64,000 nt of DNA from Ilyonectria destructans (lineage: Eukaryota > Ascomycota > Sordariomycetes > Hypocreales > Nectriaceae), in contig JAHEWK010000007.1 of the NCBI GenBank assembly GCA_020740775.1, positions 2,852,001-2,916,000 on the forward strand. The letters are read 5' to 3'. Within the stretch, counting starts at the first letter, position 1. The number at the start of each line of letters is the position of its first letter. Under the pieces are notes generated by a model. The model was given only the letters and a program-made list of their open reading frames with translations. It was not told the origin of the DNA and searched no databases. A program made the translations under genes and the position numbers. Positions 960 to 49,625 of the stretch are shown here, piece after piece.

Positions 960-1553
960 AAAGAGTTGAGGCTAGCTAGTATATCGCTCTACGTACGCGA
1001 ATGCAAGGAATCCGCTCATACCCGCATCAGGGAAGCAATGCTTGTTCCATCTTCAAACATGAGAGCAATCGGACCGTGAGTGCAGTTCTGGAGGAACCCG
1101 AGTACTGGAGAGGGTTAAATAGATTATTTAGTTAAAGATACAACGAATCTAAAGGTGTTTTAATTATGTATGAATGGAAAATGTGAGACCAGGAGGTATC
1201 GCGCTTTTCCACGTGCCATCCCGGCCAAACAATCCCCGATTCTATTTTACTCATGGATACGGCATCAACATCTGCTTGTTCACCTTATGTTACCGCCTGA
1301 CTCACGAGCATCCGTTAAACTACTCCATTGATCCACTCCACTGGGCCACTTTATTGAACCATATCTAATCAAAATCCCTTGTCGGCACCTCGGGCCAAGG
1401 GTGCGTCGGGCAACGCCAACGCTGAGTAAACTCGGGAACTCGCAGCCTAAACCGTGGGCCTCAAAACGAACGGGCATGGAATAAATAATCCTTGGAACTG
1501 TTTTTTTAAACGTTGCCAAATTGCAAAGTCTTTCTGACCTCCATTGTCTCAAA
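960..1553. promoter_or_regulatory. Intergenic region and kinase promoter, one CCTCGG site
   Basis: No gene is visible. One CCTCGG at 1388-1393 lies 161 bp before the kinase ATG. A T-run and pyrimidine-rich leader at 1500-1550 precede the start codon. Confidence 0.5.
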
Positions 1554-2767
1554 ATGTCCTCCACTGAAACTCAAACCGTACAGCTAATCCGCCAATGCTT
1601 TGCAGAGGAGGAGCAGAATCCGCCGGTTCCCCAAACGGCGGACGATGTCCCAATCTCTTACCAAGCAATGACCACGGAATGGCTCACCTTAGTCTTGGGA
1701 CCATATTCTGGCGGTGCGAGAGTCAAGAGCTTCTCCCTTGGACCAAAAGACAACGGTACATCGAATCGTCGACGAGTATGCCTCGAATGGGATGGAAAGT
1801 CGACCAAGACACCCCCGGAGTCGGTGTTTTGCAAAGCGGCTCACGCACTTAACAACAGAATCACCTTGTTCAATGGTGGCACAAAGAGTGAAGTCCAGTT
1901 TTACAAGCACATTCGGCCTCTGCTTGATATTGAAGCGCCATCTGCGTATTTTACAGCTTACGATCCAAAGTCCTGGGCTTCCATTATCATGCTCCGTGAT
2001 ATGGACCCGCGCACTCAGTTTTGTACACACAGAACAGTTTTATCAAAGGAGCAGCTTGGCCAACAGTTGTTGATTTTGGCGAAGCTTCACGGCGCTTTCT
2101 ACCAGTCCACTAAGGACGTCTTTGGCCAGGTGACGACCCTGAAGGAAAGATTCAACAGACTTATTGTCACTGTGGATTTCAAAGGGGCCGCTGAAAACGG
2201 GTTCGAGGCTGCTAAGAGTGTCATCCCACTCCATGTATTTGCCCGTGAAAACACGGTCTGGGAACGAACTCTCCAATCGTTGGAACGTTGTGCATCTCTA
2301 CCGCCGACACTGATTCATGGGGATGTGCATTTAGGTGAGCAACGCGCATTTCCTCGGCATGATAAGTGGGCTTACTCCGGACTTTAGGAAACTGGTACAT
2401 GACTCCCGATGGAAACATGGGCTTAACGGACTGGGCAGTTCTCTCGCGTGGACACTGGAGTCGCGACGTTGCCTACGTACTGGCAACAGCCGTTTCGCTC
2501 GAGAATCGACGGGAATGGGAGCATGAGATGGTGGAGTTCTACCTCGAGGAGCTGGCCAAGGCGGGTGGTCCATCTGTATCAGCTGCAGAGGCGTGGCTAG
2601 AGCTGCGTCGAGCCTCATTTCTGGCTCTGGCGTACTGGACCGTTACACTGACGCCATCTTCCAGCATGCCCGACATGCAACCCGAAGACACCACTCTGGA
2701 GTTTATTCGCCGGATTACAACGTTTATGGGAGATCACCAAGTTTTTGATTCGTTTGCGGACATGTAG
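1554..2767 (+). CDS. APH/choline-kinase-like phosphotransferase
   Basis: Two exons, 1554-2334 and 2388-2767 (53-bp intron), encode 386 residues of the aminoglycoside-phosphotransferase / CHK kinase-like fold. Splicing restores the catalytic loop HGDVHLGNW across the junction, and a DWAV metal-binding motif follows about 15 residues later, so the kinase looks active. The ATG at 1554 is preferred over an upstream in-frame codon at 1521 because of its AAAATG context. The substrate is unknown. Family members phosphorylate small hydroxyl compounds; ACAD10/11-type kinase domains act on hydroxyacyl-CoAs, which would suit the hydroxy acids expected from Baeyer-Villiger plus esterase chemistry here (speculative). 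A CCTCGG lies in its promoter. Confidence 0.85.
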
Positions 2768-3510
2768 TTCTGCTGGGCAAGGATCATTTGTGTTGATAGA
2801 TTGCTTACGACAACAAACGATCAGTTAGATTCTAAATAAACTAGGTAGCGACTGCAAGAACGCTTGGTACGATGTACTGGTGCATTATAGCAATGAACAA
2901 GTCCCTAGGAGGTTGGTCAGTTTACTGCATTGGGATATTTATTCCACAAAGGAGTTGTTGGACGATCTTCCTCTAGCCAGCGCTAGACAAAACCGGTTAA
3001 TGTTTGGGCCTTGCGCTTGACCCTGTTGCATGTTAGTCTAGGTTAACCCCTCCTCAGCACTCACTTGATTATTTTGTAGTATTTGTGCGGATGATAGCCT
3101 CGGTAACCCCGAAAGCGGTAAAGATCCGCCAAGATCCTGTGATCCGTCACCACTCTGGGAGGATTATTGTTGTGGTATCTGTCAGCTTGCTACGAGTAAC
3201 AAGCCCGATGGGAAGGGATATTTACTCAATTGTATTTAATAATTATAATTATCTGTCAATGGGAGGTGCTATTCGAACATTTATCAGGGCAATAAATTGC
3301 CAGTTATGTTGACGGGGCTGTTGAGAATAATACGCCCCGCCCACAAGTCTGTTTTATTAGTAGCCGAGGTTTTGCTATAACGTCATCTTGAAACCGGAGA
3401 CGGACAAGCCAACAAACCCGAGCGGGCAACTAGATTACCAGGAGGACGTCGAACTTGGATATTCTCTTTGTTTGGTCGCATTTTGCGTCTCTCCACCGCG
3501 ACATTCCACG
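2768..3510. promoter_or_regulatory. Intergenic and promoter of Zn2Cys6 regulator 1, two FarA-type sites
   Basis: No gene is supported. CCTCGG at 3098-3103 and CCGAGG at 3364-3369 lie upstream of the regulator ATG, in opposite orientation, which would permit autoregulation if the regulator binds this core. Confidence 0.5.
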
Positions 3511-6019
3511 ATGCCTTCCCCTAGCGACGACGACGACTTCGAGCCCCATCGACCGCCTTCCGCTTCCGCGTCCGGAGCGAACAAGAGGAGAGCAGATGGC
3601 TTGCAGCCCGAGATCATTGTAAAGCGGCGTGCTTCTCGAGCTTGCCTGATATGTCGCAGGCGAAAGGTCCGCTGCGACGTGACGAGTCGAGGAACGCCCT
3701 GCACAAACTGCCGCCTTGACGATGTTACATGTCGTCTCACGGACCATAATCGGGGCGCCAGACCTCGTTTATCGGCCGATGCAACTGAGGGCAGACGACA
3801 AATAATTTTAGTTCCTGCTGTTGGTTCCCTTTCGCACACGGTTGAAGGTAAGCTTTGGTCCAACTTCCAATTGCAGTCTCCAAGCAATAGAAGTATTCCG
3901 TAAAATGCAATGCGTCAAAATTAATAAATTGAATCAAGACACAGAAAACTTGCCTTCACGAAAGGAAGTCACTAATCCAAGAGACGCCGTAGATTGCGCA
4001 CAACCTCCTGCGCAGGCGCAAGACGGAATCATTTCCCCTAGGAGTTTGATCAACAGTCCTGTAGCCACAACCGGGTGTCCTTCTCCCGCATCGGCCGATT
4101 CACAAGGGCAGTCCCTGCCATCTTATATCCGCTGTCTGCCAGCGCACTTAAAGCCTATAGACCTGGAGTATCTGGCCAAAAAGGGAGCCTTGACGATGCC
4201 AGACGACGAGCTTCAACGGGAGCTGTTTCGGAAGTACATCCAGTACGTCCATCCATTCATGCCTGTCCTCGACTTGGCAGCGTTTCTATCGCCAATTGTC
4301 CGACGTGACGGAACTTCACAAGTTAGCCTACTCGTGCTTCAGGCCGTCATGTTCACTAGTGTCGCTTTGGTCGACCTTGACTATCTCACCGCAAGGGGGT
4401 ATTCGAATCGCAGGTCTGCACGGAGAGAATTCTTTGAGAGAGTACGCTTATTGTACGATCTTGAATGCGAGCCGAATCGAATTTCCCGCCTTCAGGCCCT
4501 CTTGCTGATGACATACTGGTATGAGAGGCCAGAGGACGAAAAGGAGACCTGGTATTGGACCGGCATCACGCAGTCCTTGGCGAATGTGATGGGCATGCAC
4601 CGAAACCCCGACCATATGGACATCAGTCCGGCAATGAAGCGTCTAAGAAAAAGGATTTGGTGGTCATGTTTTGTGCGAGATCGTCTCCTGGCGCTTGGAA
4701 TACGACGGCCAGCCCGCATCCGCTCAGAAGACTTTGACGTTCCAATGCTGACACTGGACGACTGTGAAATGGCGCCGTTTGAAGACGACATCTTGCGGTA
4801 TTTTGGACCTCTGCCAGTGGCGGACGATGTTGCCATTAAACGCAGCATTTCCCTTTGTTTCGTCGAGCTTGCCCAGCTTTGTGTTCACATTGGAGACACC
4901 CTGTTCACGCAATACTCGATTCTGGGAAGTTCAACCGGCTGGACGGAAGACACCACCACCATGATGGTACGACCGAAAAGATCAACGGACCAAATGCAGG
5001 ACATGGCAAAATGTGATAGCGAACTCACCGGCTGGCTGCAAAACCTCAGCCCGGCCTGCCGGTATCAACTAAGCCCGCATCAAGTCGAAGAGCAACAACA
5101 GCCAGAAAACAAGAGGATTCTACGATTTCACCAGGCTCTACTTTACATAATTTACTTGGCCACCATGACGATCCTGCACCGGCCGCATGCGCTGCAGGTC
5201 AGTTCGAACACCTCGGCGGACATGTTGGTCAATTCACGGCTGTCAACGGAAAAGGTCACGGAGGCCGCGGCGGAAATGACAGAAGTTGTCTATAATCTAC
5301 AGCAAGACAACCAGTTGCGCTTCGCCTCTACTTCGGCCGTCCCGGCCCTCCTGTCCGCCTCTCTTATTCACCTGGTGGACGCCCGTTCGACTAAAAGAGA
5401 CGTTCGCAATGTCTCTATAGGGCGATTCTACCAGTGCTGGCAAGCCCTCCAATACCTCCAGGACATGTACGCCTGTGCCGAGCACGCCGTATGGCTCCTA
5501 GAGGCTGTCATCCAGAAGACCAAGGTCCAAATCCCCATGCTGAACCTGGCTCCGTGGCCTACAGGAACTAGACCGCCATTCAAGCCCAAGAGACAGCGTT
5601 GCGCTGAGAGGCCGACAACTTCTTCCAGAGAATCACAACCCCTCGAACCTGCGGGTCAACGAGCCTCGGTAGCAAACTCAGTTACAACGCCACTGGCCTC
5701 TGGGAATGAACACTTAGATGCTGCCCTCCAGCCCGCTGTCGAAAACAATAGCCGGACTGTAAACAGTCCTTGTTTGACTAGTACCCAAGGGCCTTTCCCG
5801 GCCACAGAGATGGAAGATTCTATGAACTTTGACCTCTTCAATAATGCATGGCCCGGGATCAATGTCGAGGACAACCTACTTCAAGCCTTAGTCAACTTCG
5901 ACATGCCAAATTTGTTTCCCAATATGGGTGTGAGACACAGAGGTGTTACGTCCTCGCCAAGCTCCGGAAACGTTCGTTGGGTTGGAGAGGATGCGGGACA
6001 TGATGACCACTGGAGATGA
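3511..6019 (+). CDS. Zn2Cys6 transcription factor 1 (FarA/CTF1-type)
   Basis: A fungal binuclear-zinc-cluster activator. Exon 1 is 3511-3847; exon 2 starts at 3891 (43-bp intron) or 3945 (97-bp intron), both in frame, and ends at 6019, giving about 821 or 803 residues. The zinc cluster uses Cys45, 48, 55, 64, 67 and 74 with an 8-residue central loop and the CTNCRLD signature seen in FarA/CTF1-type regulators. The rest is a fungal_trans middle-homology region, including MTYWYERPEDEKETWYWTGI and a WWSCFVRDRLLALG block, followed by a low-complexity acidic tail. It is nuclear. FarA/FarB (Aspergillus) and CTF1 (Fusarium) bind CCTCGG and control fatty-acid and cutin use; that core is abundant in the surrounding promoters, making this the likely cluster regulator (inference). 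Confidence 0.88.
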
Positions 6020-6693
6020 TGTACTTTAGATGCGCCGTAAAGTGTTAGAAAGATATTTCATGCCAGTGGAATATACTACTAATACTAGGTGCCCCCTTGT
6101 TCAGTTTTCCGGGTCATGATAAATAGCGTTTGAGAAGCATCATCGATGCATTACAGCTTATAAGCCCCATGTTGGAAGACGACCCTGAATTACGAAACCT
6201 CTGATAGATTGACATCATGACCTTAGTGAGAGGGGGTGTCACAAAACCCCTCTCTGGCCGACCCGGTCCATCCGGGCCCAAGCAATCTTCAACATCAACA
6301 TCACAGCTTTGAACACTATTGCCCTAATCAAATTGACGGTAACTGATCCATCACCCCATGTGTTGTATTAATTGGGATTGCTTTGTGGTTCACCCTTTTG
6401 ATCAATTGAAGTTTCATTTCAACATTTGATGTGTTCATCCGTGTAAAGTGAATGCATCAGAGGCATGCGATGTCTCCTCCATTCCTCCCGGTTAATCAAC
6501 TTTAACCTCATGTAGACAGCACCCCGCATTTGCAGGAATTGCCAGTTGCCGATGCCTCGATGCCTCGGCAAGATTAAGCGTAGCTTCTTAGGTTGCCGTA
6601 GCCGACCTTCCGAACCCGTTATGACATGTACATAAGAATAGCAAACATCACGAGCGTGTGTTCAAACCATCATCTCATCCATCAATAAGCCAA
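6020..6693. promoter_or_regulatory. Promoter region of esterase 2
   Basis: No coding sequence. It contains the promoter repeat at 6172-6275, described separately, and one CCTCGG at 6563-6568, 126 bp before the esterase ATG. Confidence 0.5.
6172..6275 (+). repeat. Dispersed promoter element, copy 1
   Basis: About 100 bp here is recognisably similar to 25563-25662 (shared blocks such as TTGGAAGA.GACCCT, CTGATAGAT, TGACCTTAGT, AACCCCTCT and GGCCG...GGTCC). Each copy contains an inverted repeat; here the arms lie at 6228-6237 and 6246-6254. Both copies lie upstream of a gene on the same strand. Confidence 0.7.
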
Positions 6694-8299: not shown

Positions 8300-10237
8300 C
8301 TACCTGACTTCAAAGTCGTCAAAATTAGGCTTGGTCACCATGTCATGATAGTCGGCCGTATGCCAGGGCACATTGACGCTCTGGCGGCCATGTTCGTTGA
8401 CGTAGTAGCCGTGGCCCTCTTGTTCCCAGATGAGAGTCTTAGCCTCCTCGTCCAGCCTGGTGTTGTACTCGTCAAAGACATCCCTGCGACACTCGATGGA
8501 AGTTTTGCCGTTCTCTATCAAGTGGATGAGGGATGTGGCCGTATATCGCGACCATATCTCAGCCCAGGAATAGAATCCTCCTGAGCGCGGCTGGTGATTT
8601 GGCCCATAGAAGGCAAACAGGTTTGGGAATCCTGGCATCACCAGCCCGAGATACGACCGCGGGCCGTCCTTCCTCCACAGCTCGTCCAAGGTTGCTCCGT
8701 CTCGGCCGACGTATTTACACGGCCAGAAATACTGCGATACCTTGAAGCCGGTGCCGAGGACGACCATATCGAACTCTCGCTCCACGCCGTCGGCCGTCTT
8801 GATGCCTCTTTCAGTGAATGTGTCGATCTCATCCGTCACCAAGTCCACGTTGTCGCGTCGCAGCGCATCGTAGAAGCCGTTGTCCACAACCAGTCGGCGA
8901 ACCAGCGGCGCATGCTTGGGCAAGATCTTTTCGAGCAGCCCGGGGATGCCCTCAGCCTTGGACTGGATGTACTCGGTAAGGTTCTTGCGCACCAAATCGT
9001 TGCGCTCGTTGGTCAGGCCGCCCTTGGCCTGCCACTCCAAGTCGTTCGTCTGCATGTACTGCAGTTGCTGCGCCGTCACATGGGCCGAGTAGCAGTGCCA
9101 ATTCCAGTAGTAGGGCATGCGGTCGAATATGAAGCGTACATGGTCATCGATGCGCGTCTTGTAGCCATCCATGTTCATGATCCAATTTGGCGTGCGCTGG
9201 AAGATGGTCAACGTCTTGGCTTCGGATGCCACGGCTGGCGTCAACTGCGTGCCCGTAGATCCTGTGCCAAGCAAGGCGACGCGTTTATCTTTATAGTCAA
9301 CTGTATGATCCCATTTAGCCGTGTGGAAAACCGGACCCTTGAAGTTCTTGATGCCCTTGATGTCCGGCTCGTTGGGCGTGGCAAACAGGCCGCTTCCACT
9401 GACGACGGCGTTGCATCTCAGCGTCTCTGTGTTGCCATCGGCGTGATTCTTTACTGTGAGTTCCCACTCACTCTCATCCTCGTGCCAGACGGCGCCCACA
9501 ACCTCACGGTGGTAGTGAAACTGGTCTTTGACCTCGTATCTTTCAGCCACGTCCTCGAGGTACTTGAGCGTCTCGCCTGCCGAGGCAAAGTACTCTGACC
9601 AGGGATAGTTCTTGACGAACTTGAACTGGAATAGATAGCTGGACGTGTCTACACGAGCACTTGGGTACGAGTTGAGAAGCCAGGTTCCGCCGACGCCTCC
9701 CTGTCGCTCGAGGACCTGGAAATTGAACCCCAGGCGCTTGAACTGCACCGCAGCCGCGAGGCCACTGATGCCGCCGCCAATGACGATAATCTTGAAAGCG
9801 TTAATCTTGTCGGCCGACGGCTTCTTTTCTGTCCATTCTGCTGGACGAGGAAACTCTTCGTACGCCAACTCCTCGTAGTTGTAATTGAACTCGCGCTCGC
9901 TAATGGGCTCATCGCCAAAGACATCCATCAGCTTTCTGGCCTCGGCCTTAGACGGCGCCAGAGGCAAATCATCGTCGGCCTTCCGCTTCGAGAGATAAGC
10001 CACAGCCTTTTCCTTGAGTGCTGGAACGTCTTCAGGGTCCATGACATGTGCAAACATGGCGCCGCCTCGAATGGCATGTCGCTTCGTGCGCATCTTGGCC
10101 AGGTCAGGATCGCCCGTAACTTGCAGCAGCGCGAGGCGCAGAGCGTTGAGGTTAGACTTGTCTATGGCCGCGCGGATAAAGGCCTCGTCAACTGGCTTGA
10201 CGCCATTTACTGACGATACAGGTGCACCTAAAGCCAT
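8300..10237 (-). CDS. Baeyer-Villiger-type flavin monooxygenase 1
   Basis: A 645-residue, single-exon class B flavoprotein monooxygenase. It has an N-terminal extension of about 150 residues before the FAD Rossmann motif GGGISG (154-159). The Baeyer-Villiger fingerprint FxGxxxHxxxW is intact as FKGPVFHTAKW (299-309), and the NADPH motif GTGSTG follows at 324-329. GGTWLLNSYPSARVD is the usual FAD/substrate segment. It should insert oxygen next to a ketone carbonyl using NADPH and O2, giving an ester or lactone. The long N-terminus resembles the larger fungal/actinobacterial subgroup acting on bulky or ring ketones. It diverges from the acyl-CoA ligase gene across a promoter with four CCTCGG-type sites. 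Confidence 0.9.
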   Translation of the reverse strand: MALGAPVSSVNGVKPVDEAFIRAAIDKSNLNALRLALLQVTGDPDLAKMRTKRHAIRGGAMFAHVMDPEDVPALKEKAVAYLSKRKADDDLPLAPSKAEARKLMDVFGDEPISEREFNYNYEELAYEEFPRPAEWTEKKPSADKINAFKIIVIGGGISGLAAAVQFKRLGFNFQVLERQGGVGGTWLLNSYPSARVDTSSYLFQFKFVKNYPWSEYFASAGETLKYLEDVAERYEVKDQFHYHREVVGAVWHEDESEWELTVKNHADGNTETLRCNAVVSGSGLFATPNEPDIKGIKNFKGPVFHTAKWDHTVDYKDKRVALLGTGSTGTQLTPAVASEAKTLTIFQRTPNWIMNMDGYKTRIDDHVRFIFDRMPYYWNWHCYSAHVTAQQLQYMQTNDLEWQAKGGLTNERNDLVRKNLTEYIQSKAEGIPGLLEKILPKHAPLVRRLVVDNGFYDALRRDNVDLVTDEIDTFTERGIKTADGVEREFDMVVLGTGFKVSQYFWPCKYVGRDGATLDELWRKDGPRSYLGLVMPGFPNLFAFYGPNHQPRSGGFYSWAEIWSRYTATSLIHLIENGKTSIECRRDVFDEYNTRLDEEAKTLIWEQEGHGYYVNEHGRQSVNVPWHTADYHDMVTKPNFDDFEVR

Positions 10238-10796
10238 TTTCGACGATTCGTGAATACTGATTTGAAATGGTGGACAAAACTCTCAGAACAGACTCTTAGA
10301 ATAGAGCAGTGAGGGTTTGCTGATACATAGAAATTCCCAGTATAGGAGCCAGTACTCGAGAACTTGGATTGCGTTAGGAGTTCTTTCTTCTTGAGAATAA
10401 AGTCTTAATATATGACTACGAATACTTTAACTCTCATGCCTACAAGCTCGCCAAGATATGCCATGAACACCAAGTTGCGATCCGAGGCCCGAGGCCCGCT
10501 TTGGGAATAGCGGAAAATGAAATGAAATGAAATTACAAGGGAAACAACATGAATGTAAAAAAGTCATCTTGTTAGTGGTGTGAGAGCAAGTAATTGCGCA
10601 GCGTAGAGGCATCCGGGCCGAGGCCGATTGCCTCGGATACTGCACAGCAACTTCGAGTCGCCAAACCACCCCAGCTCTGCGGCCCCCACGCAGCCTCCAT
10701 TTGGATGAGACATTCCTGGAACCAACACTTAAGGAAAATCACAAGTGCGGGGTCTCTTGGGACCGTTCTTGCCACAAGCTACTGCGCTGCAACTTG
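10238..10796. promoter_or_regulatory. Divergent promoter with four CCTCGG-type sites
   Basis: This 559-bp region is shared by monooxygenase 1 and the acyl-CoA ligase. CCGAGG occurs at 10482-10487, 10489-10494 and 10618-10623, and CCTCGG at 10631-10636. The last two form a perfect inverted repeat with 7-nt arms (CCGAGGC / GCCTCGG) around a 5-bp spacer at 10618-10636, the layout expected for a dimeric zinc-cluster regulator. Confidence 0.65.
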
Positions 10797-12767
10797 ATGC
10801 CATCCAATATGCTGTTTCGATCCAGGTATCCAGATATTGAATGCAAGTCTATGCTGTTGTTCAATGCGCTGCATTTGCTAATCTCTGTTTACAGATCCAA
10901 CCGACTTGACGGTGTGGGAGTGGGCTTTTGAAGATGCCAAGTACTCGCCGTTATACAACTACCCGCCCCGGGAGATAGCTGGCTTCACCAATGCCGTCAC
11001 TCAGGAGCGGCTGGACTTTTTCCAAGTCAAGGAGTATTCGACTCACCTATGTACTGCCTTGGTCAAGGTATATGGCTTGCAAGAGACAGACACGGTGTCC
11101 TTGTTTAGCCAGAATACCTTATGGTACCCAGTAGCAATGTTCGCCGTCCTAAGAGCAGGTATGTTGACACACAAGTTGGTCCCTCCAATTATCCTCATGG
11201 TTGGGTCTTCATTAAGCACATGACAGAAAGCACGCTAATTCTACCTCATAGGCGGAAGAGTCAATGGTGCATCTCCTGCGTACAGCGTCAATGAGATGGC
11301 AAGTGCTCTCAAGACGGCGCAATCCAAGTACATCATGACAGTGCCTAATTCCATCGAGGTTGCCCGTGCCGCTGCTAATGAAGCCGGAATCCCTCCGGAT
11401 CGTATCTTTTTATTAGAAGGCGAGCTCGAAGGCTACACAACGATGAAACAGCTGTTAGAAATGGGGAAGAGCTATGGCAAAGACGGTCAAAGTCCCGTCT
11501 ATCGCATCCCAGCTGGCTCAACCAATAATGTTTGTGGTTTTCTGAATTTCAGCAGCGGAACCACTGGTCTGCCAAAAGCGGTGAGTATTCGCAAGTCTAC
11601 TCTCCAGATCGGATGAGTTGCCTGCTAATATCAACCGCAGGTGATGCTATCTCACGGGAATGTCATCGCCCAGTGTCATCAGTTGAAGGATGTGTCAGGA
11701 CCTGGCAAGAAGAGGTACTTGGCCAGCCTGCCTTTGTTTCACAGTAAGAGTCATATCCACGCCGCCGAGCTATTGCATCTCTCAATTCTAACCACAAACG
11801 ACCGGCAGTCAGTGGACTAGTCCGATTTCTCAACTGGCCTTTAGCCAGCAACAGCGAATGCGTCATGCTACCACAATTCACCATCGAAGCGTTTCTCGAT
11901 GCCATCATCAAGTACCAAATTACGGACCTCACACTTGTCCCAACAATTGTAATACGGCTTGTACGCGACCCTATCGTTGAGAAGTACGATCTGTCCTGCG
12001 TACAGCTCATTGCGTGTGGTGCAGCTCCTCTGGCATCAGAAGTCACCAAGCTGCTTGAGAAGATGCTCCCGAAAGTAGGATTCAGACAGAGCTACGGTAT
12101 GACGGAGTCGTGTTGTTGTCTCACAACTCACCCGCCTGAGTTCTACAGCTACAAATATGCCAATAGTGGGGGGATGCTTCTGGGCTCGACGGTGGTAAAG
12201 ATCATTGATGTCGATACCGGGAAGGAGCTGGGGCCGGGTGGAATAGGAGAGATCCTGGCCAAGGGCCCCCAGATTGCCATGGGCTATCTCGCGAACCCAA
12301 AAGAAACGTCCGAGGCATTTGGCACGGACGGATTTCTACGCACCGGGGATGTTGGCAGTATCGACGACCAGGGCTTCATCCACATCGTGGATCGAATCAA
12401 GGAGATGATCAAGGTCAAAGGGCAGCAGGTAGCCCCGGCTGATCTGGAAAATCTCCTGCTGGGTCATCCTCTTGTGCACGATTGCGCGGTGCTGGGCATA
12501 CCCGACGATTACAGTGCCGAGCGGCCCAAGGCATACATCGTGCTGAGGCCCAAGGCGGGTAAGCCTAGTGACGCCCTTGGAAGGGAACTGATGCAATACG
12601 TGAAGGAAAATCGAGTGCGGTATAAATGGGTCAAGGAGGTTGAGTTCGTCACCGAGATCCCCAAGAATCCAAGTGGCAAGATCCTCAGGCGAGTGTTGCG
12701 CGATGGAGGGAAGACGAGGGAGGGAGGGCTTGTTGTCAAGGATGTTACAGAGCGGGCGAAGATGTAA
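10797..12767 (+). CDS. 4CL-like acyl-CoA synthetase (AMP-forming)
   Basis: Five exons (10797-10842, 10895-11158, 11252-11580, 11641-11743, 11809-12767) encode 566 residues. The N-terminus MLFRSRYPDIEYP is typical of fungal 4-coumarate:CoA-ligase-like enzymes and is only restored if intron 1 has a GC donor (GCAAGT at 10843; branch GCTAAT). Motifs: P-loop FSSGTTGLPKAV (split by intron 3), YGMTE, TGDVGSID, and the catalytic-lysine motif PKNPSGKILRRVL. The enzyme forms an acyl-adenylate and then the CoA thioester. The C-terminus AKM fits a weak PTS1, so import into peroxisomes is possible. It is predicted to activate an acid released by the esterases. An in-frame ATG at 10809 is an alternative start. 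Confidence 0.9.
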
Positions 12768-13413
12768 ATATTGAGGTTATAGGTCAATAGAGCAATGAAA
12801 AACCGGCCCATGTGTTGCTGAGAAGCATGCTCGACTACAGATACAAGGGAATTGGTGGAATAATCCACGCTTTGTAGTACGACGAGTGCAGCTTGCCAAT
12901 GGGTCTCCAGATCACCAGATTCAATTTCATGTATCATCTCTTCAAAATTTGACTCTTATGATCGTTAAATACACTTTCCAAGTGTATTGGATGTATGTTG
13001 GCTTTGTTAAGTACTCATACCTCTCTTTGAAACGTAGTCACGGTTCTAGGTTGACGAGATGTTTCACGCGACGCGGTGATAAGCGGAAATATTCATCGAC
13101 TCAGTAACAGGCCGGATGATATTCTGCTGTCTAAACTTCTACAGCCACTCGTCATCATTGAGCATTTTCGTATTCGGCCGACGTAGAGTCGGAGCGAGGT
13201 GATGCAAGTCTCCACTCCCGAGGTCCTCCCTTGGTATGCATACCCCACGGTCGGCTTCCAACCCTCGGCAATCTCCAACTCGTACATGTTATCCAGGATG
13301 CGCCGGTCTATTTTATATACATGTATGCTGGGCACTGCAATCCATGGCATCACGAACCTAACACAGTTTACAATATTTAGCCAAATTCTTTCCTCTGTTA
13401 ACATAACTACACA
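12768..13413. promoter_or_regulatory. Intergenic region and promoter of SDR 1
   Basis: No gene is visible. CCGAGG (13218-13223) and CCTCGG (13263-13268) lie 191 and 146 bp upstream of the dehydrogenase ATG, in inverted orientation. Confidence 0.5.
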
Positions 13414-17423: not shown

Positions 17424-18324
17424 GGTTAATCAGATTGCAATAGAACAACTATGACTGACAAGCACAAAAATGAACTGCTTCTCATGAACTTTTATTCGCA
17501 AGGCCAATAGTGTCGTATTTTGTCAAATGCGTGAAGAGAACTCCAAAAGCGTGACGGTTCGATTTGCTTGCCTCGGGCCGAGTTCCGACTGCGAGTTGAG
17601 AGATGCTCATCAAGATATCCAAGGCTCCCTCGGCCCCACGCCACCACCCGACTAGGAAATGCGAGAATATGGCTTAAAGCAAAATCAAGGGCAGCTGATT
17701 TGCTGTCGAAAAAACCACACGACCTCGGGAAGCGGCCCTCTTAGATCTTTGGCCATTAGAGACGGGGTTTACATCTGCAACTCTTCATCGGGGACTAACC
17801 GTCTCATCCAACGAACCACTCCTTGCACGATAAAGAGCGCGACATCTTTTCGAATAAGACTCTAAATACATGCCTGTAATATTCGCTACAAGTTAGTCAT
17901 GGCTAGTGACGGTGGCGAGGAATATCGATGAAGGAGTGCAGATGCAAGCTTGATATGTCATATTTTCAAGCCCGCACTCCAGAACGGTTTTACAATTACG
18001 CTAAGTGCAATGCTAGACTCTCCAACCGTCAAGCGAAATATTAAATTAATTGAAGACTCACGGTCGCCTGGTACTGGCACTCTAACTCTTTGAACCTAGC
18101 CGTTTGGGGATGCTCACGGTATATTTCGTGGGAAATAGCGGGATCGAGTCCCATTTCTTCCATATGAGTAGCTTGATAATGGTAATTTCGGAATTTCTTG
18201 AGCAATTTGTCCAGCGGGCTCAGCGCGGAAGGTTGAGCCGGCCGCAGTGAGAGGCGTGACGAACATTATTGTCCAGCGTTGTTTCGTCCAAAATAACGTC
18301 TTCCAGCGGATAGCCCTCCACACT
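17424..18324. promoter_or_regulatory. Promoter of the flavin monooxygenase and gap
   Basis: CCTCGG occurs at 17571-17576, 17628-17633 and 17723-17728, all on the plus strand upstream of the minus-strand gene. No gene is supported between here and the repeat arrays. Confidence 0.5.
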
Positions 18325-19190: not shown

Positions 19191-20651
19191 CTACAAATTG
19201 GCTTGAGCACCAAGCCTTTCTCTAGTATCTCCTAAAGCAAAGTCGTTCCGGTTCTTCTTGCTTCTCACCCTGTCAGCGTCACTGTCCGTAATGCCGCGGG
19301 CCTCTACAGCAGGATTGTACCCCAGCCAGCTCGTCGACGCAATTTTGTTGTTGCTGACTGCTAGGTTGGTCCGGTCATCAGCCCGTTTGTAGACATTGAT
19401 GACCACGGCGCCTCCAAGGCCCAAGTTATGCTGCAGCGCAACTCTCGTCTTGTCCACGAGCCTGTTGTTGGCCCAGCCTCGCAGCTGCCAGGTCAACTCA
19501 GCACATTGGGCCAATCCCGTGGCGCCGATGGGATGGCCCTTGGATATAAGACCTCCAGACGGATTCACCACCATCTTGCCACCAAACGTAATGTCTCCTC
19601 GGCGAACCATCTCGTGCGCCTTTCCGGGTTCAGAAAACCCCAATGCATCCAAAAGTACCATCTCATTCGTGGAGAAGCAGTCGTGCAACTCGCAGGCTCT
19701 GACATCGCTGGATTGTATTCCGGCCTCACTCATGGCGGCTTGGGCGGCTCGCTGTGTCATGGTGTAACCAACAAGCTCGATTGCACTTGTCCCGAAAGCC
19801 GCGGGAGAGTCGGTCAAGAAAGACTGTCCCGCCATTAAGATGGCCTGGCCCTTGAGATGGGGACGGGCATCTAAGAAACGTTGCGAGACGATGACTGCTG
19901 CTGCTGCGCCATCACTTGTGGGACTACACTGCAGCTTGGTCAAGGGAGCGAAGATGGTTGGCGAGTCCTGGACCTCCTGGAGAGAGTAACTTCGCTGGAA
20001 TTGCGCATACGGATTGCGCTGAGAGTGTTCGTGCGAGATGCGTGCAATCTCGGCAAAGTCTTCTGCTTTCGCTCCGTACCTGAGAGTTCAGTTAGCAAAC
20101 ATTGGTTCGTCTACCACCGTCATCATTGCACATCAAAGAATAACTTACTTTTCCATATACTCTCGACCTGCCTGTCCGAAGTACTGAGCCGTCAAGGGAG
20201 CTGCCTTCTCAACCCCAACCAACTCGCGCAGCTTCGCAGCAAAACGTCCGCTGGAGCTGGGTCTATCGTCCCAGGCACTCTTGAGACTTCCAGGCTTCAT
20301 CTGTTCAGCTCCTACTACCAGGACACAGTCCACAGTGCCGCTCCTCACGAGTGTACGGGCCAGATAGAGCCCCACGGACCCAGTGGCACAGGCGTTGCTC
20401 GTGTTAACGATGGGGATGGTAGACATGCCAAACTGGTAAAAGATACGTTGGCCTGATGTAGAGTCTCCGTACGCAAAGCAGGCCACGCCGTGCTCAACGT
20501 CGTCGTAGTTGATCTGGGCATCTAGCATGGCCTTGACACCAGCCTCGTAGCCCATTTCTGGGTACTTGCACAATCCTCGAGGTTTCGTGAATTTTGTCAT
20601 GCCCACACCAAGCACGTAGGCCTGGTTCCCAGGCGGTGTTATGTTTTCCAT
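19191..20651 (-). CDS. SCP-x-type thiolase
   Basis: Two exons (20149-20651 and 19191-20079, 69-bp intron) encode 463 residues. The junction restores YMEKYGAKAEDF. The active-site cysteine lies in NTSNACATGSVG. CELHDCFSTNEM and GGLISKGHPIGATG are the other hallmarks of the sterol-carrier-protein-x / acetyl-CoA acyltransferase branch. There is no C-terminal SCP2 domain and no clear PTS1 (it ends ANL). The reaction is thiolytic release of acetyl- or propionyl-CoA from a 3-oxoacyl-CoA; SCP-x-like enzymes favour branched or sterol side chains. It is the natural last step for the acyl-CoA made by the ligase at 10.8 kb. It diverges from esterase 3 across a promoter with four CCGAGG/CCTCGG sites. Confidence 0.9.
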
Positions 20652-31110: not shown

Positions 31111-31545
31111 TGTCGAAGTATGTCAGGCCAAGTTGAGAGAATCCGAACTCTTGATCCTTGCAGATCAATTAATCCATGTTCTGACTGGCTGGGTAAAGGT
31201 GATTAATATAAGGTAGAACTCTAAGACCCGAGGAGAGCCTGTGACCGGACCCGAGGAGAGGATACAACCCGAATTGGCGATGACTCCCGAACCGGTGGAT
31301 GTATCCCGAGGGGAGGATGAATCCCGAGGTGAAGCTTACAACAAGCTGAAGTTAAAATCTGACAAGCTTCACATTGCCGAGGACGGACATATTGACCAAT
31401 CCAAGTGAAGGAATTCAGGCATGGACAAATAAGCTGTAGTATAAAAACCATTATGTTCTTGCTATGATCTTAGACAGCCATGCTTCGATGAACCGTTGTT
31501 CATTCTCCAACCAAGAGTCCTGAAAATTGCTGAAACTTGTGTAAA
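31111..31545. promoter_or_regulatory. Divergent MFS/P450 promoter with a CCCGAGG array
   Basis: CCGAGG at 31228-31233, 31251-31256, 31306-31311, 31324-31329 and 31377-31382, all in one orientation, plus CCCGA partial copies between the second and third. Spacing is about 18-23 bp, giving an array of operator-like repeats. Confidence 0.65.
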
Positions 31546-39280: not shown

Positions 39281-42249
39281 ATGGCTCCTGACGATCCAAT
39301 GGCACCCTCCAGCAACCCTCGTCGCTTGAGTCGCCCGCGATCGATGCAGGCCTGTCTCTCTTGCAGGTCTCGCAAGGTCCGTTGCGATGTCTCGACACGC
39401 GACCAACCCTGTACCAACTGCCATCTGGATGGAAAAAACTGTCTCGTTGTCGGGAGGGCATCGCGAATGTACGACAATGCTAAGCGCCTGACGCGCTTTG
39501 AAGCTGCCCTTTGTTTGTGACTGCTGCTAACCTTGTGATGCAGAAGTCAACAAGCCCGCAGGAGACAACCGGGTCGTCTCATCGCGGACACCTCATCGGA
39601 ACGGTCACGGCGCGGAGATCCACCCCAAGAGGATCTGGGCGACAGCATTCATGCATCGCTGTCCGCCGCAGAGACATCAACAATGAGCGCCCCCGATGAT
39701 GCTGCGCCGTCGATGAATCTTGACGATCCATCCCAATTCGACATAGACATGCCCTGGTGGGAAGGGCAGCTCGAGTCTCTTCCCGCTGTGTCTATTGAAG
39801 ACGGCATCAACGGCGGTGATATTGGGCACGAGTCGCATCAAACTACTGCCACACACACCGAACGCGATTTTAGCCAATCCGCATGCGGCGAGCGAATAGA
39901 TGCAATGCCTCTATCAGGGACCGCATCTTCAGAACCAACTTCGATTGAGAGTCACAGACGGGCTGCGAGCGACGCCGGATCAATCCACCACAGAAAGCGC
40001 CGTACCGATGGGAACCAGGGGCCGTCCACGGTACTCTATTCTCACTACCGATACCTATCCGTCGGTAACCTGCACAGCATTCCTCATCAGGATGTCAGCT
40101 ATCTGGAGGCCCAGGGATGTTTACACGTGCCTACTCGCCCGACGTTGGACAACTTCGTAGAACAGTACTTTGCCCAATTGCATGTCCTGATCCCCTTAAT
40201 TCACGAGGGCGAATTCTGGGACATGTATTCCGACAAAGGCGACGCGGTTCCTCGGCGAACGATGTCTCTGCTAGTATTCCAGGCCATGCTGTTTGCCAGC
40301 TGCACTGTGCGTTAGACTGCGACGCTGCATACACTCTATGTCAAACCAGATACTGATATAACCACAGTTTGTACCCCAAGAAACTGTTCAGAAATTGGGC
40401 TTCTCAAGCCTTCGGGCAGCGAGAGCTGAATTCTATCGAAGAACAAAGGTATTTCCACCCCTAGAAATATTGTGAGAGTGCTCATACCAAGCCAAATGGC
40501 CTCACAGCTTCTCTACGATTTAGAAACGGAATCTGAACCACTTCCACTGGCACAAGCCGCGCTCTTAATGATGGGCTGAGTTCCACCGTCCAACACAACC
40601 CTCAAACCATACCAAAAATGGCTGGCAATCGGCATCCAGCACGCGAGAAGCATCAACGCAGATCGCTATGCGGAAAGCTTGGAATCGGCCACACCCCTCT
40701 CGCCAGATCAGAGCATGCACCACAATGCACTTCGTCGTCTCTGGTGGTGTTGCATTATCCTCGATCGAGTCTCTCCCCTCTGTACACGCTTCCGGCTCCA
40801 CATTACACACGATCGGTTCGACTTCAAGAACAGCATACCCCTGGGGATGTCGGATCTAGAAGGGGAGATGTATCGGTCAAGTATCTTCACCCCGGCAACT
40901 AAGCGACGACACATTGCCCTGTTCTCCAAATTTCTGGAATTCATTGTGATACTTACTGACGTACTCACCCTGGTATTTCCATTTGAAGACTCTGTTATGA
41001 GCAAGTGGGAATCGCAACAGTCAGACCATGCCGTGGTTAAAAGGTCTGATGCCCTATTAAAGGACTGGTATGCGCGCGCTAGTGCGCAATTTCCTCCCAA
41101 TGATGACAGCCAAACACAGCGCCCCGGCAAGAGAGAGAGAGACAAGTCTGTTGTATTGCACACTCAGCTCATGTATATATACTATCAGTGAGTCGCCGGG
41201 TCACTTCGTCTCTTATCCGTCAGAGCTAACACAAGCGTAGCACCGCCGCTATTGCCCTATGTCATTATAAAATACTGCATGAATCTGTCAACTTACAGCC
41301 CATCAATAAAGCAACCAACGATGCTGAACAAACCATACAACTGGACAAACGGTGTAGCGAGTTGCAGGACAGCACTTGCAAGATGACGCAATGTTTTGGC
41401 ATCTTAACCCAACGTCGCCTAACTCGCTGGCTTCCAATAACCGCGTAAGTTAGCTATTGTATATCACGACAAGACAAATTAAAACTTACGATTCTTTTGG
41501 ACAGAGTTGCGTGCCTTGCAACCCCTCTAGCATTACATGTTATGACTGCAAGACTATCATGTCTGAGCAAGGAATTGACCTTTGATCCTCTCAGTGGGTC
41601 GAATTCGGTTTCGGTGACGAACCAAAGTCGCTTGGACGTCTTGGTCGAGGCGATGAAGACGTTTGTGCCACAATACGATGGTGTGGAGTGGGTAAAAGAA
41701 GTAGCAAGACATGTTGCAAACCTGGCTCAAATTAATAGTCAATCGCTGTGCCAGGCGGACCGGGCATCCATCACAGACTGGGGCCAGATGTTGACGAGCC
41801 AGCCAAACACGTACCTGCGGATGACCTGGACGGTAGATGTCTGCATGAGCAAAGGGAGGCTACCGGAAGAACGTGACTTTCCAGCGTGGCTTCGCGACCA
41901 GCTGAGCCTAGCCAAGGGAGCCGGACCTCACTCGCAACGCAAACAGCCTCGGGTCTCATCCCTGGCCGAGCCGAGGACTTTTGACCCGGTTTTGAACTAC
42001 GACCCGCAGCAATCCATCGACGACCTCATCCCGTCCCTGGCAGAGTTTCTCCCCACTGGACAGGTCCCTGGAATTGAAAATTACAGCTCAGAGTTTCTTA
42101 CAGGGCCAATCAATACCATGACAGAGGGGTATTCTGGTAGCCAGACACGGGATCGCGACGTGTTTGCTGACGGGGCATCGCAGCCTATAGATGTCGACGG
42201 AATGGAATGGGCCTTGTTCGGAGTCATGGAGGACTTGGTTGAAAAGTAG
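39281..42249 (+). pseudogene. Zn2Cys6 transcription factor 2, interrupted by TGA
   Basis: Six exons (39281-39468, 39544-40306, 40368-40448, 40508-41187, 41241-41444, 41505-42249) form an 887-codon frame with a FarA/CTF1-type zinc cluster (Cys25, 28, 35, 44, 47, 54; CTNCHLD) and a fungal_trans domain. All splice joints keep frame, but codon 368 is TGA at 40577-40579, after QAALLMMG and before VPPSNTTL. No GT or GC donor that would remove it exists between the exon start and this codon. Related regulators have an aromatic residue about here, so a TGG-to-TGA change is likely. Downstream sequence (WLAIGIQHARSINADRY, LRRLWWCCIILDR) is well conserved, so the damage is recent, a sequence error, or bypassed. 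A truncated product would keep the DNA-binding domain. Confidence 0.8.
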
Positions 42250-43077
42250 CCCGGCATTTACATACTAGTTAATTTACTATCACCTTGCCCCCATCTGAAC
42301 TCGTGTGAACGTGGCTGTGGTGCTGGTTGCTCAAACACAATGTGCTACAAGATTCCGAGTATTCCGAGTTGCACCCACCAGTTGATTCCTGATTACGGCT
42401 CCACTGGAATTTGGCTTCAATGCGGGGTAGTCTGATTATAGTCTGTCTGGGGTAATGGGGTAATGCGTGTCGTGCGGTCGTGCTAATGTCCCTCGGCAAG
42501 GGAGACACATCGAGCCGTACCCTCAATGCGGAGAGGGGGAATGTTCTAACCCTACAATGCTTAGTGGCCCTGCGAATGGTAGGATCTTGGCCCCCGGATC
42601 TGTGAATGGGATGACCTCTAAACGCTGGCCCCCGTTATTGCAACAGCTGCCATTGGTGTTCGGGAATCCAAAGCTGGTACTTTATCATGGGTGCCCATGG
42701 GGACTGGTGAGGGAGATGCCGGCTTGTAACTCGCTTAGTCTTTGCTGGGGTATGCCGCACATTTGGGTGCTCGTTGACGCTGACGGTCTAGACTGTTAGC
42801 TTAGGGTGTGATGAATACATAAGTCATTATCTACTCCATCTCTACCGTATCAATTAGATCCCTTTGTAGCTCATTCATTTCTAATTAACCATCATCAACT
42901 GTATTGCATAACGCCAGCCGCTTCTGAGATACAATGGTCGACCACGCAGAGACGGAAGCCCATGCGGCCCGTCATGAGTTAGTGAAGCCGCAACACCATG
43001 TTTCGCATGCGCTGGTATGGAATTAACGGTGGAATTCTGGTAGCACGGCCACCCAGAACATCTCTGGGACCATCGAC
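42250..43077. other. Intergenic region upstream of the DHA1 transporter
   Basis: No gene is supported. One CCTCGG at 42491-42496 lies 580 bp upstream of the transporter ATG. A short open frame from an ATG at 42934 does not join the transporter in frame by any good splice pair. Confidence 0.45.
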
Positions 43078-46772: not shown

Positions 46773-47358
46773 GTTATGTGGTGGCTTGAAGAATTTGAGA
46801 GGTGGAATTGGAAAAGGATTGGAGACCACCGACGAGGGATGCGAAATGCGAGATTGTCATTATCTGTGAGAGTCAACTAGAAATAGGATCAGAGAATGAT
46901 CATTAATTAATAAAAACAAAGCCGCGATTTAATTTGTTGGTTCTGTCCCAAGCCTTCACGCGCCGATTATGCCTGCCCCGCGCTTGTTGTAGACAGACAG
47001 GGGGCTCACTAGCGTTGGCCTCCTGGCCCGAGGCCTCGTTGACGCCGAGGAGTGAGTGAATTGTTCTAGTGAGTCGCGTATTATGCAAAGTCGAAATGGC
47101 CCTCGGAAACCAGGCTGCCAGGGGAAGTACCGTAGTGGAACAGCAATCGGTTTGTGGCGGTGAGAGGATCAAGCGTCTTCATTCGCTCTTCGCCGCATCC
47201 GGATGATGCTAGTGCCATGATTTGTGTTTGAGGATGTTCCAAATATTCCATAATATATATCGTCTCTCCGGCTGGAGAGAAGGATGTTGAATCAACGAGT
47301 CATCCCTTCTTGTGCTTGATTCCCTACTCCTCCATTACTGAGCACCAGCTTCCCAAAG
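46773..47358. promoter_or_regulatory. Divergent SDR 3 / hydrolase promoter, three sites
   Basis: CCGAGG at 47028-47033 and 47045-47050 (17 bp apart, direct) and CCTCGG at 47102-47107. No gene lies between. Confidence 0.55.
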
Positions 47359-48326
47359 ATGACTTCCACTCGGGACTTTGACATTCCTACTTACGATGGA
47401 ATTAAACTGCGAGGCACCCTATACTGTATAGGGCAGCAGAAGCCCTGCATCATAATGTCCAGTGGTGTGAGTCAGCCCAAGGGAGACGAGCCTACTTCGC
47501 GGCAGTTCGTATGCTAATAAATATATTTCGTCGCTAGTGGTCGGGTCTTCGCACCCACTTCATTCCCGATTTCGCGGCACGATTCAACGCTGCCGGGTAT
47601 GGCGTCCTGGCATATGACAACAGAGGTTGGGGCGAGAGCGAGGGCATGCCTCGTGAGGAAGTCGATCCTTGGCTGCAGACTCGCGACTATTTCGACGCCT
47701 TCAACTTTGCCACAGTTCAGCCCGAAATTAATGCCACTAAGATAGTCTACTGGGGGTCCAGCATGTCCAGTGGAAACGCCGTTTGTGCTGCCGCCATCAA
47801 CAAGAAGATTGCGGCTGTCATTCTTCAGGTCCCGTTCGTCTCCGGCGAGGCAATCAGCCGCAGCCCTGGCATGGATACCAGCATGTTCGTGCTGGAACGC
47901 GGCAAGGCCGTGGCTGAGGGCGCTGCCTCCAAGATTGACAACTTCCCCAGCTCAATGGAGGAACTCATGGCTGGTACATCCAAAGCCGTGCTCAGGGATC
48001 CTGAGGCCATAGCCTTCATCGACGAAATGAAGAGACGCGGTATGGATTGGTCCAAGACTTGCACGGTGCAGAGCTTGACGAACGCCGTGCTCCATGAGCC
48101 GGTAGCGTACATCCACCGGATTTCGCCCACGCCCATGTTGATGATTGTCTCAAATAGCGACGTCACCACACAAACTCATTTGCAACTCCAAATGTACGAA
48201 AAGGCATTAGAGCCGAAGACATTGACGATTCTCAAGGGCGTGGGACATTTCAGCCCGTACTATGGCGAGACATTCGAGATCAATATTAAAGCCCAGCTTG
48301 ACTTTCTCAAGGAGACTATTGGATGA
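47359..48326 (+). CDS. Alpha/beta-hydrolase (S15/dienelactone-hydrolase-like)
   Basis: Two exons (47359-47466 and 47538-48326) encode 298 residues. The fold is recognisable from GYGVLAYDNRGWGES, the nucleophile elbow at YWGSSMSSG (Ser111), the acid region VSNSDVTT and GVGHFSPYYGE (His). The elbow reads GSSMS rather than GxSxG, an unusual replacement also seen in some fungal polyketide-transferase-like hydrolases. Relatives of this YcjY/S15-like group act as esterases, C-C hydrolases or acyltransferases. It is unrelated in detail to the three HSL-type esterases. Divergent from SDR 3 with shared CCTCGG-type sites, it probably serves in the same pathway. Confidence 0.83.
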
Positions 48327-48673
48327 TATAAGACGTCGGGAAATCTTTACCTCAGATGGATAGAACAATAGAGCCGCCCTTGCCCTCAACTTTTATGTCA
48401 ACCTAAGTAAAATTGTGTAACCGTGATAACCTGAAGCCGATGCGGCCAGCTAAAAAAAAGTACTAAACAATGTTTTGCATTCCAAATTCTACTTCACAGG
48501 CTTCGTTACAAGATGCCAAGTCCCTTGGTGGTGTTTGAAGTCAATTTAGAATGCGAAATAGAAGTTCTAGGTAATGTATGCAATCAGCCTATTGTACTTC
48601 TAATGGCACTACACGCCGCTGACTACCCTATCAATTCGCCCTGCAGGTCACACTTTGGCGTGACGGCTCATAA

Positions 48674-48946
48674 TTACAAATGAGCCTGCAACTTCTTCTG
48701 CCTTTCTTGGTCTTTCAAGACACGTCTCAAGATCTTCCCACTGGGGCTCTTCGGGATCTGCGCAACGAATTCAATGCCACCCTGCAACCACTTGTACCTC
48801 GCCTTGTGCCCGGTGATGCCGCAGGTGAATGGGTTACGAGATTGCGCGAAGAGTTTCCGACCATCTCGCTCATTGTACATGAACTCTTCCACCGTGACTT
48901 CGGGAGCAGTTTGTATCGGGAGGGGGTTTGGCCTAGGGCGGCGCAT
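48674..48946 (-). pseudogene. 3' relic of a second 4CL-like acyl-CoA ligase
   Basis: About 90 codons match only the C-terminal end of AMP-forming ligases: VTVEEFMYNER, then RYKWLQGGIEFVAQIP and the catalytic-lysine motif PKSPSGKILRRVLKD, ending LQAHL. Odd insertions (FAQSRNPFTCGITG) split the first part. Upstream sequence (48947-49625) lacks the adenylation domain, so the 5' nine-tenths is gone. It resembles the intact ligase at 10.8-12.8 kb (RYKWVKEVEFVTEIP) and its terminus AHL would fit a PTS1. It is best read as a deleted paralogue. Confidence 0.75.
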
Positions 48947-49625
48947 GAAACACCATGGTGTTGCGTGTTATTGTTGGTTCTTTCGTGATAGGACTGCTGA
49001 GTATTCTTACCTAGAGAAGGTAGAGGATGATTCTGGCGTATATCGTTTATGAGTGACAAGACTTGGAGTTAGCCTAACGACCAATCTCGCACATCGCATC
49101 CGCAGCGGTCGGAAAACTCCCGTAGCCAAAGCCGTAGTTCGACGGCAGTTTTGGTCCACTGGACCGAGGCTTGCCCCCTTAAGCTAAGCGGCCTCGGGGG
49201 GCTTGCCTGATATGGTCACGTCTATCAAACCCCGCGTTGAGGATCAGCATCGATGAAGCTACTGCATAGATGTTGCGGGGTAGATGCAGGCTCGCTAATC
49301 AATGAGTAATGATGTGGGCTGGGTCGAGCTAGACCAAGACGGAGGCAGGTTGATGGGTAGACTGCAACATACGATTTCCAATTGGTGAAACGTTCCGAGC
49401 ATGCGCCTGCGTTGGCAACGCGCCGTTATGGCTCCCCTCCCTCGGCACACCACTCGGAATTATCATTCCGCAGTCGACTCCCAGAATATGTCTTAAGAGG
49501 GGCAAAGCTGCAGGATTAAGCTCAGTGCCGTCACTCTCCATTTCTCAAACAAAGCCATTCATACAACACTGATAGTATTACGACATACATACTAGAGCAC
49601 AGCGTTAGAAATCCAAGACGAAGCC
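48947..49625. promoter_or_regulatory. Promoter of Baeyer-Villiger monooxygenase 3
   Basis: CCGAGG at 49164-49169 and CCTCGG at 49192-49197 form an inverted pair 22 bp apart; a third CCTCGG is at 49440-49445. No further coding sequence is present. Confidence 0.55.

Follow-up and report, generated by a model that had tools for sequence, protein, structure and literature searches.

The 64,000-bp stretch analyzed here (the window; contig C67, positions 2852001-2916000) comes from the 71.67-Mb, 74-contig genome of Ilyonectria destructans. It lies across a gene cluster, apparently for the breakdown of ring-shaped ketones, that begins near -28.8 kb and ends near +49.7 kb (window coordinates; negative numbers denote the left flank and are counted from the window start). 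The hexamer CCTCGG (or its complement CCGAGG, both called sites below) is found in front of nearly every gene of this cluster. Genes were predicted with our own gene finder, which was trained on the window and 200 kb from contig C67. The models were corrected by hand inside the window, with the site positions known, and are used as predicted in the left flank. The features are as follows.

-18.2 to -15.9 kb, left flank: REG0, 770 residues, with a zinc cluster of the REG1 type and a 44% match to REG1
960-1553: 5' DNA of the gene named a kinase by the sequence-only reading that preceded this analysis; site 1388..1393, 161 bp upstream of the start codon at 1554
2768..3510: 5' DNA of regulator 1; sites 3098 and 3364
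3511..6019, plus strand: regulator 1 (REG1), Far/CTF1-like Zn2Cys6 protein, 803 residues predicted, one intron (3848-3944)
6694-7659: esterase 2; site 6563..6568 in its 5' DNA
8300..10237, minus strand: Baeyer-Villiger monooxygenase (BVMO) 1, 645 residues, FMO-like Pfam match
10238..10796: divergent promoter of BVMO 1 and the acyl-CoA ligase; 4 sites (10482, 10489, 10618, 10631)
10797..12767, plus strand: acyl-CoA ligase (AMP-binding)
12768..13413: 5' DNA of short-chain dehydrogenase/reductase (SDR) 1, whose start codon is set at 13414; 2 sites (13218, 13263)
15339-17423, minus strand: flavin monooxygenase 2
17424..17728: 5' DNA of flavin monooxygenase 2; 3 sites (17571, 17628, 17723)
19191..20651, minus strand: SCP2-type thiolase (Thiolase_C_1, PF22691; SCP2-thiolase type-1 6hsj, 417 bits)
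20652..21323: divergent promoter of the thiolase and esterase 3; 4 sites (20841, 20855, 20881, 21239)
22296..23108: 5' DNA of BVMO 3; 4 sites (22721, 22853, 22921, 22945)
23109..25052, plus strand: BVMO 3, polycyclic-ketone-monooxygenase type, 647 residues (5mq6, 598 bits)
25053..25733: 5' DNA of an NmrA-like gene; 2 sites (25511, 25546)
27017-27912, minus strand: SDR 2
27913..28124: 5' DNA of SDR 2; 2 sites (27995, 28119)
31111..31545: divergent promoter of an MFS transporter and a cytochrome P450; 5 sites (31228, 31251, 31306, 31324, 31377)
34344-36026: FAD-linked oxidase gene
36800-38372: gene for a fungal rhodopsin-type membrane protein (PF20684)
39281..42249, plus strand: regulator 2, Zn2Cys6 protein, several introns, provisional model; PF00172 on the first exon
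42250 to about 43000 (approximate start): 5' DNA of a second transporter, Sugar_tr-type; site 42491..42496
46773..47454: divergent promoter of SDR 3 and an alpha-beta hydrolase; 3 sites (47028, 47045, 47101)
48327..49625: 5' DNA of the last flavin monooxygenase; 3 sites (49164, 49192, 49440); the last CCTCGG-rich promoter, at the right edge
49626-51725: flavin monooxygenase

Baeyer-Villiger or related flavin monooxygenases lie at -26.2, 8.3, 15.3, 23.1 and 49.6 kb. The cluster also holds three alpha/beta-hydrolase-3 esterases and one other hydrolase, several SDRs, the NmrA-like gene, the MFS transporter and the P450. An acyl-CoA dehydrogenase gene lies in the left flank at -3.1 kb, and at -23.5 kb lies the gene of a long SDR-type protein that by eye resembles a peroxisomal multifunctional enzyme. 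BVMO 1 matches phenylacetone monooxygenase and steroid monooxygenase chains. BVMO 3 scored 484 bits against the PtlE-like model NF045818, under its cut-off of 1100, and the first exon of the kinase gave no Pfam match. An Rfam scan and a bacterial-code tRNA scan of the window gave no matches.

The hexamer occurs 24,675 + 24,650 = 49,325 times in the genome (0.688/kb), and the window has 72 copies in 64,000 bp compared to 44 expected. With the hand-corrected models, the 5' DNA of the window (16 segments, 13,652 bp) contains 38 sites, or 2.78/kb, where 9.4 would be expected (P 2e-12), and 14 of the 16 segments have at least one. The left flank adds 27 sites over 9 segments (7.5 kb), while a tenth segment (-1749 to -1117) is empty. 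Altogether, 65 sites are present in 21,791 bp of cluster 5' DNA compared to 15.0 expected (P 1e-21), and at least one lies in 23 of the 26 segments. The site-free segments are -1749 to -1117, 36027-36800 and 38373-39280, the last of which lies before regulator 2. The FAD-linked oxidase and rhodopsin-type genes share 36027-36800 as common 5' DNA, which is without CCTCGG despite its position within the cluster span.

Elsewhere the hexamer is close to background. Outside the cluster, 36 segments of 5' DNA (42,036 bp) hold 32 sites, 0.76/kb, with at least one site in 19. The density in cluster 5' DNA differs from this at P 3e-8 (25 segments, 21,158 bp, against 36); the empty 633-bp segment at -1749 to -1117, which adjoins a doubtful open reading frame of 103 codons, is in the 26-segment count and absent from the 25-segment count. 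Tail-to-tail gaps have 1 site in 5 gaps (3,246 bp) in the window, so that four of the five are free of it, and 3 sites in 7 gaps (6,906 bp) in the whole cluster. With the first models, window exons had 28 sites in 37.6 kb (0.74/kb, near the genome rate). Since promoters outside the cluster are near the genome rate and neither exons nor tail-to-tail gaps show an excess, the excess is peculiar to the 5' DNA of this cluster.

In the first models, intergenic DNA had 1.80 sites/kb in the window, 0.93/kb in the two 50-kb flanks (the left one was later found to be part of the cluster) and 0.51/kb in 100 kb elsewhere on C67. The 200-kb background came from contig C67 alone, and half of it was these two flanks. 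With those models, no hexamer in the intergenic DNA of 960-49625 ranked above CCGAGG/CCTCGG, whether the reference was background intergenic DNA (42 compared to 14.5, P 10^-8.5) or a second-order Markov model (42 compared to 8.0, P 10^-16.5). Two changes between the models affect the counts: the sites at 37041, 37232 and 43287, at first intergenic, were placed in plausible coding exons and dropped from the 5' count, and after correction of regulator 1 a supposed tail-to-tail gap, in which 2 sites lie, became a promoter. In the same intergenic DNA, the top pentamer against background was TACAA/TTGTA (75 compared to 37.1), and CTACAAAG occurred 6 times compared to 0.4 expected and could be a second motif.

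The sequence-only reading had counted 36 promoter copies, close to the 38 found here; its 8.3 kb of promoter DNA reflects a tighter choice of promoters than our 13,652 bp. It had also described most convergent gaps as free of the hexamer, which agrees with the gap counts, and had named an equal density in other promoters as the result that would speak against it; the densities were 0.76/kb outside and 2.78/kb in the window. The CCTCGG enrichment is thus confirmed and is stronger than first stated. The gene list of that reading is incomplete, since the cluster extends beyond the left end of the window, where the pattern begins at about -28.8 kb.

Could composition, dispersed repeats or chance produce such a frequency? 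Genome-wide, CCTCGG is somewhat more frequent than its mirror-image control (49,325 compared to 40,423), which would fit a compositional preference. However, CCTCGG is one of 60 hexamer classes with equal base composition, and in the cluster 5' DNA it has 65 copies where the other 59 average 8.3; the next two classes (30 and 29 copies) overlap the CCTCGG word by five letters. The flanks of the sites look unrelated, and no excess is seen in the exons or the tail-to-tail gaps of this stretch. Chance and composition were rejected on the hexamer ranks and same-composition counts, and a dispersed repeat on the unlike flanks, making this explanation extremely improbable.

Distances to the nearest upstream site were listed for 17 window genes, a set without esterase 1, the FAD-linked oxidase, the rhodopsin-type gene, regulator 2 or the second transporter; the site lies 80-349 bp before the start codon, with a median of 161. 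Close pairs, with a gap of 30 bp or less, number 20 in the 78.5-kb cluster, where the genome-wide 1,575 (508 + 544 direct, 256 inverted and 267 everted) would predict 1.7. A fixed spacing of paired sites was rejected, as the gaps range from 1 to 29. A longer consensus was also rejected: C or G precedes the hexamer at 45 of the 65 cluster 5' sites, and the share outside is similar (about 10 of 16 after scaling). Because both gaps and orientations vary, the single hexamer is likely the unit.

An unrelated Zn2Cys6 regulator, for example of the NirA type, might read the same hexamer. The NirA-type consensus is CTCCGHGG, and such sites can include CCGAGG. In the cluster 5' DNA, however, CTCCGAGG was found at only 3 of the 65 sites, and CTCCGTGG and CTCCGCGG at none, so a NirA-type regulon was rejected. 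The cluster also holds Far-like regulators, although no search was aimed at NirA-like ones. We consider this explanation very unlikely.

Site-rich DNA extends from near -28.8 kb to +49.6 kb, with sharp ends. To its right (51.7-114 kb), there are 43 sites compared to 42.9 expected and 1 close pair compared to 1.4. To its left (-50 to -28.8 kb), 7 sites compare to 14.6 expected, and 1 pair to 0.5. Genes to the right, where the hexamer is at background level, include a glycoside hydrolase family 3 gene (54774-56975) and, by eye, another Zn2Cys6-type gene (59884-61620). In the left flank, within the cluster span, -11388 to -8317 encodes a predicted protein of 990 residues that by eye resembles a fungal NLR, with a nucleoside-phosphorylase-like N-terminus, an NTPase and TPR-like repeats. 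A second NTPase/ankyrin-like gene, also identified by eye, lies outside the span at -34740 to -31652.

The regulators encoded in the cluster were then compared with known Far proteins. The earlier claim of a Far/CTF1-type Zn2Cys6 regulator inside the cluster is borne out by REG1, which has Zn_clus (PF00172, 2.5e-7) and Fungal_trans (PF04082, 7.6e-28) and is 37% identical to A. nidulans farB over 99% of REG1 (500 bits). Its zinc cluster, CLICRRRKVRCDVTSRGTPCTNCRLDDVTC, is close to A. nidulans FarB CCCCRARKVRCDVVENGSPCTNCRLDQVEC and keeps the FarB pattern CRxRKVRCDV...CTNCRLD. REG1 homologues, among the matches listed, carry the names farB, Ctf1B and cutinase transcription factor 1 beta. Both Pfam domains, PF00172 and PF04082, were also found in REG0. 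Two sites each precede REG1 and REG0, and autoregulation of regulator 1 is possible. Regulator 2 is more distant: by tblastn it matches FarB at 22% over 610 positions (75 bits), its zinc cluster is 55% identical to that of REG1 and 45-58% identical to those of Far-like proteins, and the remainder is 22-26% identical. It was not among the 63 listed matches of REG1 and FarB in its own genome, where the best candidates were scored. By sequence, then, the cluster contains two clear Far-like genes, REG1 and REG0, and one distant relative. The gene of locus L032 (C67:763201-766000) was set aside, as its zinc cluster is of another type.

A tree of 45 rows has a 100/100 split with A. nidulans FarB (P0095), the Aspergillus FarB/Ctf1B rows and the rows of the C73 type on one side, and REG1, REG0 and a Far-like gene on contig C56 on the other. 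REG0 and some other rows are long-branched in this tree, which warns of long branches meeting across the split. Because of this split from the FarB rows, REG1 is classed as a Far-like paralogue and not as the FarB/CTF1-beta orthologue, which makes regulator 1 a member of a separate Far-like group. A gene of the FarB/CTF1-beta clade is present on contig C73 of the same genome. The sequence-only reading had offered recruitment or duplication of a fatty-acid-type regulator; with REG1, REG0, the distant regulator 2 and a separate FarB-clade gene, duplication fits better than recruitment.

To see whether such regulators accompany BVMO genes in other fungi, homologues of REG1, the C73-type protein and BVMO 1 were listed as the best 120 of 916, 1694 and 1741 proteins, respectively. 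The contig lists compared held 102, 107 and 84 entries and largely exclude contigs shorter than about 9,000 bases; one entry of the C73-type list is possibly wrong. Among these matches, at least 13 records have homologues of REG1 and BVMO 1 on one contig, although a common contig is no proof that the genes are close. The linked records come from Sordariomycetes, Eurotiomycetes and one Dothideomycete. Gene numbers are 3 to 16 apart in 8 of the 13 (for example A1O5_06205/06196, ACJ41O_005611/005614 and g7290/g7295): C. psammophila, Fusarium sp. NRRL 66182, A. nanangensis, F. decemcellulare, NU459, F. nematophilum, Thyridium curvatum and Sporothrix eucalyptigena. Four of the 13 (Penicillium pulvis, P. 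lividum, Dactylonectria macrodidyma and a JGI contig) gave no gene-number pair, and for Sporothrix stenoceras the gene tags come from two assemblies. No contig had both a C73-type (FarB-clade) protein and a BVMO 1 homologue among the matches listed.

Other loci of the same genome were examined for the hexamer as well. On contig C56 (C56:657401-671800; L040, L029, L039), a Far-like gene lies near genes that by eye are HMG-CoA lyase-like and CoA-transferase-like. The divergent promoter of the latter two (about 0.69 kb) has 4 sites, the Far-like regulator has 3 within about 0.95 kb upstream, and the locus overall has 14 in 14.4 kb (0.97/kb). This is possibly a second small regulon of the Far type. 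Cutinases are classical CTF1 targets; four of 30 cutinase family matches were examined, and each of these loci has 2 or 3 sites. They lie no farther than about 0.65 kb upstream of the predicted start; at L035, which has no predicted forward gene, the distance is taken from the family match.

The cutinase loci would fit an alternative in which the sites of the cluster are read mainly by global FarA/FarB-type regulators, which would make the cluster part of a genome-wide fatty-acid regulon and leave the resident paralogues redundant or otherwise employed. The FarB/CTF1-beta clade gene on C73 could provide such a regulator. In A. niger, the use of ferulic acid requires FarA, and the foxA and katA promoters have putative CCTCGG sites (PMC10512302). 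However, the cluster density of about 3/kb, with up to 5 sites in 435 bp, far exceeds that of the other sampled promoters, and the joint contigs seen in at least 13 records for REG1 and BVMO 1 have no FarB-clade counterpart among the matches listed, a weak control. We regard a mainly global control as unlikely, though the most serious of the alternatives.

We favor the interpretation that the hexamers are putative Far/CTF1-family sites that unite the cluster promoters in one regulon, with REG1 and REG0 the likeliest main activators and the global Far proteins possible helpers, and we give it a probability of roughly 0.7. Local control is favored because REG1-type and BVMO 1-type genes share contigs and because 2 sites each lie before REG1 and REG0. 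The interpretation rests on these two proteins and not on regulator 2. Binding, co-regulation, an inducer and the substrate of the cluster are what we infer from these data.

Several observations weigh against this interpretation. Regulator 2 has no CCTCGG site in the 908 bp upstream of it (38373-39280). The hexamer is short and has no longer consensus, and its spacing is variable, so the sites do not tell which paralogue binds, and global FarA or FarB could read them just as well. Among the linked regulators included in the tree, REG1 is joined by P0005 and P0012 alone, while P0023, P0024, P0045, P0046, P0052, P0054, P0065 and P0066 fall in a neighboring group that holds REG0 and the C56 protein. 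The C73-type linkage control is weak because the species sets of the lists differ. Isocitrate lyase is an expected Far target, but the two loci cut for it do not clearly show clustered sites in their promoters: one has a single site, 0.57 kb upstream, and the other none.

The gene families suggest how the pathway might run. Zn2Cys6 activators of the Far/CTF1 family would bind CCTCGG/CCGAGG across the ~78-kb catabolic cluster. A cyclic, probably bulky polycyclic, ketone would be made or imported by the P450, SDR and MFS proteins, and the Baeyer-Villiger monooxygenases would convert it to a lactone or ester. Esterases may then open this product, and the acyl-CoA ligase would activate it. The resulting acyl-CoA could be shortened by the acyl-CoA dehydrogenase, the multifunctional enzyme and the SCP2-type thiolase. 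A regulator family of fatty-acid catabolism would suit such a pathway because its later intermediates would be acyl-CoAs.

The substrate may be a steroid or terpenoid, but this is a lead, not a result. The best match of two cluster BVMOs is 5mq6 (598 and 626 bits), which we take to be polycyclic ketone monooxygenase (the database label is pyridine nucleotide-disulfide oxidoreductase-like protein), and in the NCBI taxonomy Cylindrocarpon radicicola, from which a steroid monooxygenase is cited, is I. destructans. Steroid lactonisation by 'Cylindrocarpon radicicola' has long been known. A broader proposal, of a self-contained circuit derived from lipid regulation, is tentative and on balance rather unlikely: two or three Far-related genes would have become part of a polycyclic-ketone (steroid/terpenoid) cluster of wide but patchy occurrence, CCTCGG would have been gained before nearly every gene, and a global fatty-acid switch would have become pathway-specific. 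Such a cluster could underlie the steroid lactonisation of C. radicicola.

If these proposals hold, the locus is a case of regulon building legible from sequence, with relatives of a global regulator inside a cluster and a six-base site before almost every gene. It predicts that the paralogues control a ring-opening pathway and offers many strong promoters for direct binding tests. The fungus has long been known for Baeyer-Villiger chemistry on steroids and polycyclic ketones, and the locus is a concrete candidate for its genetic source.

A literature search of titles and abstract openings, with most subscription journals outside its scope, gave no description of a Baeyer-Villiger catabolic cluster that has a Far-type regulator. 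Resident Far-like paralogues in a cluster for BVMO and beta-oxidation steps, with sites before nearly every gene, look like a new variation on this known control. A steroid monooxygenase of C. radicicola is cited (PMC6019235) and CAMO is placed in the CHMO group (PMC5225235); neither the purified enzyme nor CAMO is tied to any gene of this cluster. That Far proteins act through CCTCGG, and that Far control extends over lipid and some aromatic catabolism, is already known, as described in PMC5068947 and PMC10512302. FarA and FarD of A. niger on ferulic acid resemble the present case in being Far-type regulators of a non-lipid carbon source that ends in beta-oxidation. In the part of that account available (PMC10512302), no cluster with resident Far genes is described, FarD lacks a zinc cluster whereas REG1 has one, and the A. 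niger promoters have single sites whereas most promoters here have 2 to 5. The closest relatives are FarA/FarB of Aspergillus and CTF1-alpha/beta of Fusarium, which share with REG1 and REG0 the Zn2Cys6 and Fungal_trans domains, a highly similar zinc cluster, CCTCGG as the site (here a putative one) and the link to acyl-CoA catabolism. In contrast to A. nidulans FarB and its group, REG1 and REG0 stand outside the FarB/C73-type group and inside the cluster that they probably control.

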